A stretch of DNA of 64,000 nt, from contig NZ_LJAL01000005.1 in the NCBI RefSeq assembly GCF_001419985.1, positions 1 to 64,000 of the forward strand. The letters are read 5' to 3'. A program made the translations under genes and the position numbers. The DNA comes from Loktanella sp. 5RATIMAR09 (GTDB lineage Bacteria > Pseudomonadota > Alphaproteobacteria > Rhodobacterales > Rhodobacteraceae). The notes below the pieces were generated by a model that was not told the DNA's origin, searched no databases, and saw only the letters and a program-made list of their open reading frames with translations. Every line of letters begins with the position of its first letter. Positions within the stretch are counted from its first letter, which is position 1. Of the stretch, positions 3,258-5,116 are shown piece by piece.

Positions 3258-4235
3258 ATGAAGAGCCTAGCATTTTTCAATAACAAGGGTGGGGTAGGAA
3301 AGACGACATTGCTATGTAATGTGGCGGCTTACTTCGCAAAAGAAATGTCGAAATCGGTGCTGGTCGTGGATTGTGACCCTCAATGCAACGCATCTCAGTA
3401 TCTATTTGATGATGCAACTCTCGAGGAAGTCTTTAATGATAAGACCCAAAGCGTCGAAGTTCTATTTGACGGGCTGATGACAGGGCTGGGTCACTCTCAA
3501 GAAACTCCAATCCGCAAATCTTCTGAATTTGGAGTCGACGTTGTCTGTGGGAGCCCCTCACTGTCCGTTGCAGAGGACTTTCTTGCTGAGGAATGGGCGA
3601 GCTTGAATACTACGCGAGGCCTGTCTAGCACACTAGTGTTCGCAAACTTTTTGCAGCAAGTGCAGGAATATGACTACGTATTTTTCGACGTCAGCCCATC
3701 ATTGGGTGCAATCAACCGTACTGTATTGCTTTCCACAGATTTTTACGTAAGCCCAATGTCGATAGATATTTTCTCGCTCAAAGCATTCCAAAATATAAGC
3801 GTTTGGATGGCAAAATGGCAAAGCCAATGGGAATATGCGATAAAAAGTCCAACGCTTGACTTGAGCTCACCAATCCTCAGCGCAGCCCAGTCCCTCTCGG
3901 CCGCCCGATTTATCGGCTACGTTTCTCAGCAGTATACTGCCAAGCGAGATGCGAGTGGCGAGCGCAGGCCAGTTAAGAGCTTCGATGAAATTCTCCGACA
4001 AATCGACAACCAAATCGAGACCCATTTTGTCGGGGGCAATATTCCCATAAAGCCATTTGAAATTGGGCAAATCCCCAACCTACACAGTCTGGCACCAATG
4101 TCACAATCTCGGCGTAAGCCCATCTTTGACCTTACTGGAAAGGATGGGGTGGTTGGGGCGCATTTCGCAAAAGTTAGAGAGAGCCACGACATCTTCGGGC
4201 AAGTAGCTCAAGGCATAGAGAGTCGTATGGTATAA
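3258..4235 (+). CDS. ParA/MinD-type P-loop ATPase, first gene of a SIR2-associated pair
   Basis: A 325-aa protein with the deviant Walker A motif KGGVGKTT at residues 10-17, a switch-like VVDCDP at 36-41 and Walker B YVFFDVSPS at 140-148, as in the ParA/Soj ATPases. The ATG at 3258 puts the P-loop at its usual distance from the N-terminus; an upstream ATG at 3210 would add 16 unrelated residues. The C-terminal ~150 residues match no family I recognise. No ParB partner or parS-like array is visible, so chromosome or plasmid partition is unlikely. A SIR2-like gene starts 5 bases after the stop, so the two are co-transcribed. Both are AT-richer than the ribosomal genes around them. Acting as sensor or switch for the SIR2 partner is inference. 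Confidence 0.85.
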   Translation: MKSLAFFNNKGGVGKTTLLCNVAAYFAKEMSKSVLVVDCDPQCNASQYLFDDATLEEVFNDKTQSVEVLFDGLMTGLGHSQETPIRKSSEFGVDVVCGSPSLSVAEDFLAEEWASLNTTRGLSSTLVFANFLQQVQEYDYVFFDVSPSLGAINRTVLLSTDFYVSPMSIDIFSLKAFQNISVWMAKWQSQWEYAIKSPTLDLSSPILSAAQSLSAARFIGYVSQQYTAKRDASGERRPVKSFDEILRQIDNQIETHFVGGNIPIKPFEIGQIPNLHSLAPMSQSRRKPIFDLTGKDGVVGAHFAKVRESHDIFGQVAQGIESRMV

Positions 4236-4240
4236 CTAGA

Positions 4241-5116
4241 ATGGAGTGGCCGCAGAATCTAGTTGACGACTTGGCGCGCCGCCGAGCAATCTTGGTGCTG
4301 GGATCAGGTGTTTCGCGCCATGGACTTGGTGCTGATGGGGTATCAAAACCGCCAGTCTGGAAGGCCTTTCTTTCAGAAGGACTAAGAAAGGTTAGCTCAG
4401 CTTCAGATTGTTCGCATATCGAAGAAGCAATAAAAAGCGGTGATTTTCTGCATGCCTGCGAGTGGTTGAAGCGTAAATTCGATGAAAACTGGGTAGCCTA
4501 TCTGCGAAGCAAATTTGTAGCCCCAAGGTATCAACCTGGCCGTTTGCATGAACTTATTGCTCGCCTCGATGCGCGGGTGGTCTTTTCGCTGAATTTTGAT
4601 GAAATATATGAGAATAAGTCACGAGAGATAAATGAGACATCTCAGTTTGTAAAAAACTACTATGATGACGATGTGGCTGAGTTCCTTCGAGGTGAGGCGC
4701 GTTATGTTGTTAAGTTACATGGTACACTCGCATCGCCATCTAACTTGATTTTCACTCAAGAGGAGTACTCTAGAGCGCGAGCAAAATTTGGTTGGTTTTA
4801 TAGAGCTTTTGATGCCGCACTAATGACCCATACTTTTATTTTCGTTGGGTGTGGTTATGGCGATCCTGACGTCAATCTTTTATTGGAGAATCAGGCCTTT
4901 GAGCCTGTACAAGGCGCAGTAAACCCTCATTATTTTTTGACCTCGGAAGGAATGCCAGAAGATTTGACTGTCTCTTTAAGAAGAAACAGGAATCTTAAAG
5001 TACTGCGCTACGACAAGGTTGACCAAGATCATTCAGGCTTGATCAGCGCATTTGAAGATCTGTACGGGAAGGTTGAAGAAGCGAGAACCGAGCTAGCGGA
5101 AAATGGCAATTGGTAA
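4241..5116 (+). CDS. SIR2-like (SIR2_2-type) predicted NADase
   Basis: A 291-aa protein resembling the SIR2-like domains of bacterial defence proteins. Visible motifs are LGSGVS (20-25, nucleotide-binding loop), SLNFD (116-120, conserved Asn118), KLHG (158-161, candidate catalytic His160) and FVGCGYGDPDV (201-211). The residues that catalytic family members need are kept, so NAD hydrolysis is plausible. There is no signal peptide, membrane segment or fused sensor domain, unlike the larger DSR or ThsA proteins. It lies 5 bases after the ParA-like gene, and the sampled stretch 4621-4680 is 22/60 G+C against 30/60 at 10861-10920. The likely role, abortive infection triggered via the ATPase, is inference from the family. 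Confidence 0.82.
   Translation: MEWPQNLVDDLARRRAILVLGSGVSRHGLGADGVSKPPVWKAFLSEGLRKVSSASDCSHIEEAIKSGDFLHACEWLKRKFDENWVAYLRSKFVAPRYQPGRLHELIARLDARVVFSLNFDEIYENKSREINETSQFVKNYYDDDVAEFLRGEARYVVKLHGTLASPSNLIFTQEEYSRARAKFGWFYRAFDAALMTHTFIFVGCGYGDPDVNLLLENQAFEPVQGAVNPHYFLTSEGMPEDLTVSLRRNRNLKVLRYDKVDQDHSGLISAFEDLYGKVEEARTELAENGNW

Follow-up and report, generated by a model that had tools for sequence, protein, structure and literature searches.

What a ParA-like ATPase and a small SIR2 protein are doing between two ribosomal protein genes is the question raised by this locus of Loktanella sp. 5RATIMAR09; it asks both how such a pair comes to lie in the S10 cluster and what the two proteins are likely to do together. 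The window, i.e. the whole stretch of 64,000 nucleotides that was analysed, carries the two-gene pair that an earlier note on this DNA had placed between rplW and rplB, and the arrangement is confirmed at the coordinates below, with five bases separating the ATPase stop from the SIR2 start.

2838-3134: rplW (L23), 5' flank of the pair, assigned by Pfam
3258..4235, + strand: ParA/MinD-type P-loop ATPase gene, 325 aa; Pfam AAA_31, 2.7e-27
4241..5116, + strand: stand-alone SIR2_2 protein gene, 291 aa; Pfam SIR2_2, 3.2e-18
5401-6243: rplB (L2), 3' flank of the pair, assigned by Pfam

The motif KGGVGKTT at ATPase residues 10-17 and the SIR2 residues N118 and H160, as claimed in the same note, are all present in the translations. 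An alternative longer ATPase frame begins at 3210, and the family alignment agrees with the start at 3258. The low G+C that had been reported for the pair is borne out, the four 1-kb segments that mostly cover it having values of 0.457-0.488 and the remaining 1-kb segments of the first 16 kb 0.520-0.588. A Staphylococcal-nuclease homologue is found 5' of rpsJ at 236-880 (PF00565, 4.5e-07).

The first protein has the features of a ParA-type ATPase, a deviant Walker A motif KGGVGKT and conserved aspartates, with K10, K15, D38, D40 and D144 all conserved. Of 100 ATPase rows of the family, 93 have the Walker A lysine K15; six of the remaining seven are gapped at this position, and the last (L239) has a different residue there, in a frame that an inner stop interrupts. 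The ATPase profile matches PDB entry 3pg5 along its entire length (4.2e-82), an entry that is itself named "uncharacterized protein", and the next match is a Soj protein (8.8e-26). In a quickly built, midpoint-rooted tree with long branches the ATPase of the window clusters with those of Sphingomonadales and others. We infer that the ATPase would be the regulator or sensor of the pair, and that its partner is a predicted NADase effector. The latter carries a SIR2 domain and the catalytic Asn and His that mark the SIR2-family defence NADases, and a loss of these residues in homologues, which the earlier note had regarded as fatal to its proposal, is absent: N118 and H160 are kept in all 103 SIR2 rows of the family alignment.

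Searches with the SIR2 profile against the PDB match chains named ThsA, SIR2-like/DSR2, KomC and FAM118B. PADLOC gives only partial matches to the SIR2 protein, the best being ThsA (4.9e-17), and a single weak match to the ATPase; an NCBIfam scan of the pair brought no model close to its cut-off. Each of the known SIR2 classes considered was rejected. Thoeris ThsA consists of a SIR2 domain with a C-terminal STALD sensor and works with a TIR partner; the protein studied here has 291 residues and no STALD, its partner is ParA-like rather than TIR, and the ThsA models align only to SIR2 residues 96-237 and 100-218, besides one weak short match. DSR1 and DSR2 are proteins of about 1000 residues with a C-terminal sensor, a size that rules out DSR2, as does a Dsr2 equivalog score of 29.9 against a cut-off of 1400. 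SIR2-HerA and SIR2-pAgo have an adjacent HerA or Argonaute gene, and the neighbours in the window are rplW, the ATPase gene and rplB.

The pairing itself had been proposed in the earlier note, subject to the two genes being neighbours in other genomes, and it holds up well. A ten-protein SIR2 alignment, used alone as query, gave 92 loci (the best 80 of 100 relatives on genome contigs together with 12 viral-contig loci), and in 89 of these a ParA-like ATPase gene lies directly upstream on the same strand. The three exceptions (L233, L234 and L240) are all from Ralstonia; their SIR2 proteins keep both residues and no ATPase is found within 600 bp. The end of the SIR2 frame in these Ralstonia loci is overlapped by the next gene. 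A full-length SIR2 protein next to an ATPase frame carrying an inner stop is seen in L239 and L269, and in L244 both genes of the pair are damaged; such patterns of SIR2 without an intact ATPase could reflect draft errors. With start codons set by script, 98 of 100 two-gene rows overlap or sit at most 20 bp apart (55 with a 4-base overlap; the window, +5), and a fusion of ATPase and SIR2 is found in none of the 100. ORFs of the relatives were called mechanically, some being spurious, chiefly in G+C-rich genomes, and at least three loci are present twice among the 103 SIR2 rows (L002/L039, L040/L199 and L041/L219). Family distances of the ATPase and SIR2 proteins correlate (r 0.849 over 91 pairs, equalled by none of 999 permutations; 0.630 among the distant pairs), in part because of shared ancestry.

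The pair is widely scattered and locally rare. Eight phyla are represented among the tree labels inspected: Pseudomonadota, Bacteroidota, Bacillota, Myxococcota, Cyanobacteriota, Planctomycetota, Acidobacteriota and Candidatus Poribacteria. SIR2 matches of any kind occur in 27 of 394 host-family genomes, full-length relatives in four (own genome included), and in all four the ATPase gene adjoins. One further genome (G340) has a C-terminal SIR2 remnant only; the remaining 22 genomes give weaker or incomplete matches, with no ATPase relative in the stretch around them, and are evidently SIR2 proteins of other kinds. Within the host genus the SIR2 of the window is present in one of 56 genomes, being absent from the 55 others. 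A scan of the genome contigs with the single protein gave no relatives, and a SIR2 search among phage records no match.

How the pair comes to lie between rplW and rplB is best understood from the structure of that junction and its counterparts in related genomes, for which the following features are needed.

3135..5400, no strand: rplW-rplB gap, a hypervariable cargo site in the host family (gap lengths in 88 genomes)
3157..3192, + strand: intrinsic-terminator-like hairpin and T run just after rplW; -26.5 kcal/mol, z -4.89, 0/200 shuffles as good
5236..5264, + strand: terminator-like hairpin 3' of the SIR2 gene; -15.7 kcal/mol, z -2.59, 4/200 shuffles as good
5332..5398, + strand: L2-Alphaproteobacteria ribosomal protein leader (RF03142) for rplB; Rfam 56.1 bits, gathering 37.8, E 2.5e-11
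8036-9428: rplP-rpmC junction, with a 2OG-Fe(II) oxygenase-family gene at 8621-9241 on the minus strand (PF13759, 2.4e-36) and a small ORF

Of 120 host-family and 56 host-genus genomes, 101 and 46, respectively, gave an rplW match. The gap to rplB in the 88 genomes whose retrieved stretch spans it (own included; L144, an inverted stretch with no true gap, was dropped) has a median of 1189 bp and a range of 24-5517 bp, exceeding 1 kb in 50, and all 39 gaps measured in the host genus are longer than 300 bp. In 12 genomes rplB lies outside the fetched stretch; it was located elsewhere in 11 of them, on the same contig in three (at 17 kb, 26 kb on the opposite strand, and about 203 kb) and on a different contig in eight. 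Among 16 cluster junctions tested, with 16 to 135 loci each, 14 are always at most 193 bp; the second variable junction, rplP-rpmC, has a median of 2014 bp and a maximum of 9800 bp over 39 loci. A hairpin follows rplW in 75 of the 88 measured genomes and in 37 of 39 in the host genus, as compared to 2 of 440 in shuffles; that of the window is missing from the list of a consensus terminator scan, which does list the hairpin at 5236..5264 among 5 sites found against 2.9 expected.

The cargo between rplW and rplB is mostly genome-specific, with some pieces that recur. The 121 cargo ORFs with a length of 100 aa or more include some with defence-like matches (AbiP2-type reverse transcriptase, SoFic, OLD, GmrSD and SocA) and others that match families of globins, transporters, chemotaxis proteins and dehydrogenases; PADLOC covered 77 of the 121, the remaining 44 including ORFs of L144. 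Two rplW 3'-end fragments lie downstream of the intact gene in L102 (462-1972), and L146 has a second rplW match; these extra 3' pieces may hint at the route by which cargo enters. Because a hairpin follows rplW and an L2 leader precedes rplB, the operon is taken to consist of blocks under separate control, and the gap between them to be a tolerated landing place. The earlier suggestion that residence in an essential operon may protect the pair from loss consequently finds no support: the gap is a variable cargo site set off by the post-rplW hairpin and the L2 leader of rplB, and none of the 55 other genomes of the genus carries this SIR2. The S10 cluster of the host family, an unlikely place to seek accessory or defence genes, has two reproducible cargo sites. 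No description of the rplW-rplB cargo site or of a ParA-SIR2 system was found in the accessible portions of the open-licence PMC literature searched (including PMC9122126, PMC9503650, PMC3316620, PMC11514479, PMC3710099, PMC2701414 and PMC13275509).

Elsewhere the pair is found on mobile elements. In the plasmid collection 97 records match SIR2, nine of them covering at least 80% of the query, and a separate search with the ATPase as query places an ATPase relative immediately upstream in the best eight of these nine, six of which were inspected in detail. A Vibrio ponticus plasmid carries the pair and, elsewhere on the same molecule, a separate ParA/ParB set, and partition is therefore disfavoured as the task of the pair, in support of the earlier view that partition is unlikely; in the window, the ORFs from rplW to rplB include no ParB gene. 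A P2-like replication gene (phrog_91) and the portal gene (phrog_68) flank the pair in the viral-contig loci L269 and L271. The pair occurs also in 12 of 5,426 E. coli genomes, at about 69% DNA identity to the L271 query, and in the three of these 12 loci that were inspected it lies between a replication endonuclease and a portal gene in a prophage with P2-family capsid genes. The gpA-gpQ stretch of P2-like phages is described in PMC9122126 as a hotspot of anti-phage systems that also holds other, non-defence cargo, including in about a fourth of these phages a putative plasmid partitioning system. The ParA gene of the pair could be mistaken for that system, or could be kin to it. No other evidence speaks as strongly for a defence role as the position in the P2-like prophage hotspot, which is not a proof of it. 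What the earlier note had seen as a two-gene module with its catalytic residues kept is thus present in prophages, in plasmids and in a published anti-phage hotspot.

Methylases, integrases and YhcG nucleases recur beside the pair. The neighbour comparison, which covered 133 of the 139 test ORFs and 122 of the 154 from the control, the latter scanned by PADLOC alone, gave 85 PADLOC families at 1e-10 as against 32 in the control; it is given little weight because the control comes from other taxa and families were listed rather than proteins counted. In the Bacillota loci L205, L216, L218 and L244 mutually similar genes beside the pair are, by Pfam, probably YhcG/DUF1016-type nucleases.

In 11 of the 103 rows a DNA methylase gene directly adjoins the pair, on its upstream side in five (L030, L253, L277, L278 and L280) and on its downstream side in six (L213, L214, L222, L225, L229 and L235). 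All three that were scanned belong to Pfam N6_N4_Mtase. Five that were compared share 38-44% identity between the two arrangements and 49-55% among the downstream ones, the upstream pair sharing 47%. At 1e-10, with only the best match listed for rows with a match, no methylase was found in the other 92 rows, in the full window or in 60 further stretches, and the methylase-ATPase-SIR2 cassette of L280 had no match in E. coli. Because two arrangements keep it touching the pair, the methylase is read as a probable functional part of the module in its branch; since 92 of 103 rows and the window itself are without it, methylation cannot be the general gate of the system.

Relatives of the ATPase also precede other enzymes. 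A profile search of 398 genomes of the host phylum gave 32 matching at E <= 1e-45, and 30 phylum loci could be sorted by the downstream gene: SIR2 in five (own included), HEPN in three, RelA_SpoT in three, a protein without a Pfam match in one, and in 18 no credible partner as judged by eye. HEPN proteins, which match Pfam HEPN_RiboL-PSP, are next downstream in five loci in all, including a Burkholderia glumae plasmid and phage Pf1. In the latter (L312) the HEPN_RiboL-PSP frame, at 4019-4543, is absent from the annotation of the record and overlaps the annotated Soj/ParA-like gene; Pf1 is a filamentous phage bearing a ParA-HEPN pair. A RelA_SpoT-domain protein follows a related ATPase in four loci (L305, L308, L309 and L314; one record is Caballeronia), the ATPase frame of L309 being interrupted by a stop. 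A fourth partner class (L310, 2536-3270; L315, 3489-4196), its two members alike by eye, has no meaningful match in Pfam or PDB, and a nucleotide cyclase identity considered for it is unsupported by either. The other named ATPase records (L031, L033, L034, L035, L311, L313 and L316-L320) have no visible downstream partner. In the P22-like phage ST160 (L311, 3995-5068) a lone ParA-like gene lies close to the c2 repressor gene and may be cargo that is expressed in the lysogen. In the tree, one side of a branch (95 rows, SH-aLRT 99) holds the SIR2-linked ATPases, and those with other partners fall outside it. The SIR2, HEPN and RelA/SpoT families can stop a cell, by NAD loss, RNA cleavage or alarmone-type synthesis. 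Since HEPN or RelA/SpoT proteins follow relatives of the ATPase, the ATPase looks like a shared switch for different effectors.

These observations bear on four accounts of the pair, of which a mobile two-gene abortive-infection module, predicted to act by NAD depletion, appears the best, with a probability that we would put at roughly two in three. It is favoured because the ATPase gene lies upstream in 89 of 92 loci, the SIR2 residues are kept, the pair occurs in the P2-like hotspot and the PDB kin of the SIR2 protein include defence NADases; the tight gene spacing, the correlated family distances, the adjoining methylase of some rows and the HEPN and RelA_SpoT partners of related ATPases count for it too. 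Counting against it are the ribosomal neighbours of the pair in the window, the partitioning cargo that shares the P2 hotspot, the 18 of 30 ATPase loci without a credible partner, the SIR2 genes of the Ralstonia loci, L239 and L269 that lack an intact ATPase, the 22 family genomes with weaker or incomplete SIR2 matches and no ATPase relative, and the absence of the methylase from most rows. Those neighbours are also the ground on which the pair might be held to be a functional part of the S10 operon, sensing or gating translation; this is scarcely credible given that only the window's own locus among 135 rplW loci, and none of the other 134, has a relative of the pair nearby, that the pairs of the host-family relatives sit away from the ribosomal cluster, and that a hairpin lies ahead of the pair and the L2 leader behind it. 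Membership of the pair in the S10 transcript was rejected on account of the hairpin, the leader and the lack of any sister genome carrying the pair. A housekeeping or replicon-maintenance task without any role in conflict, such as partition, chromosome organisation or NAD or acyl-lysine metabolism, would fit a ParA homologue some of whose relatives are solitary on phages and plasmids, and would fit the putative partitioning system reported for the same hotspot (PMC9122126); however, the missing ParB ORF, the separate ParA/ParB set of the Vibrio plasmid, the patchy occurrence (full-length SIR2 with ATPase in 4 of 394 family genomes, SIR2 in 1 of 56 of the genus) and the grouping of the window's ATPase with Sphingomonadales and others make such a task quite improbable.

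A toxin-antitoxin or addiction function, in which SIR2 is toxic alone, the ATPase is its antitoxin and the pair keeps plasmids, prophages or islands in the cell with defence at most a side effect, has more to recommend it and is nevertheless unlikely. The regulator-like gene comes first and the enzyme second, commonly with the 4-base overlap; relatives of the ATPase adjoin further toxin-like enzymes of the HEPN and RelA_SpoT kinds; and the ParA/Soj-HEPN dyad was itself proposed as a toxin-antitoxin pair with the ATPase as antitoxin (PMC3710099). However, SIR2 proteins with the N and H residues are found without an ATPase in the three Ralstonia loci and beside a frame with an inner stop in L239 and L269, and an ATPase-less SIR2 is incompatible with a strict antitoxin, unless sequencing errors are involved or SIR2 is kept off otherwise. 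Unless they are draft errors, these same loci favour an ATPase that would activate rather than restrain SIR2.

ParA-type ATPases commonly bind DNA in an ATP-dependent manner. In the proposed abortive-infection module the ParA-like ATPase would serve as a switch whose resting nucleotide state restrains SIR2 or leaves it unassembled. On sensing an invader, most likely as foreign DNA, the ATPase would change state and SIR2 would turn into an active NADase, so that NAD would be depleted and the infected cell would halt ahead of phage release. Sensing and switching are placed in the ATPase, and execution in SIR2, because the ATPase is constant and the enzyme variable; foreign DNA is a first guess at the trigger because ParA-type proteins bind DNA and one branch has a DNA methylase, which in the loci that carry it may label the cell's own DNA. 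In sibling modules a HEPN or RelA/SpoT enzyme would replace SIR2 behind the same type of switch. The wider proposal of a new class of modular immunity, in which one ParA-type ATPase family would switch SIR2, HEPN, RelA/SpoT and the fourth protein and sense invading DNA by a ParA-like cycle dependent on DNA and nucleotide, with the methylase of one branch marking self, is tentative and somewhat doubtful as a whole. As a sensor or switch of bacterial immunity a ParA-type ATPase would be unusual; and because related ATPases precede SIR2, HEPN and RelA/SpoT proteins, a single experiment on the switch mechanism would bear on three or more predicted systems, among them the HEPN pair of Pf1.

In comparison to known systems, the pair shares a SIR2 effector with Thoeris ThsA, DSR2, KomC, SIR2-HerA and SIR2-pAgo, and its profile resembles the ThsA, DSR2 and KomC chains. 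Unlike ThsA, DSR2, SIR2-HerA and SIR2-pAgo, it is without a STALD or large C-terminal sensor, HerA or Argonaute, and its partner is a ParA-type ATPase. The RelA_SpoT proteins that follow related ATPases recall toxSAS-type RelA/SpoT toxins such as CapRel, although the antitoxins of the latter are not known to be ParA-like. The SIR2, RelA/SpoT and methylase versions of a ParA-type module were not found described in the accessible portions of the open-licence PMC literature searched. The closest published relative is the ParA/Soj-HEPN dyad, predicted as a toxin-antitoxin system by Anantharaman et al. 2013 (PMC3710099), and because of that proposal the concept of a ParA-type regulator joined to a toxic enzyme is already in print. 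The two-gene design, in which a ParA/Soj-like ATPase accompanies a toxin-like enzyme, is shared; the effector here is SIR2, and the HEPN partners found here are HEPN_RiboL-PSP, unlike the family of the paper, which is named MAE_18760.
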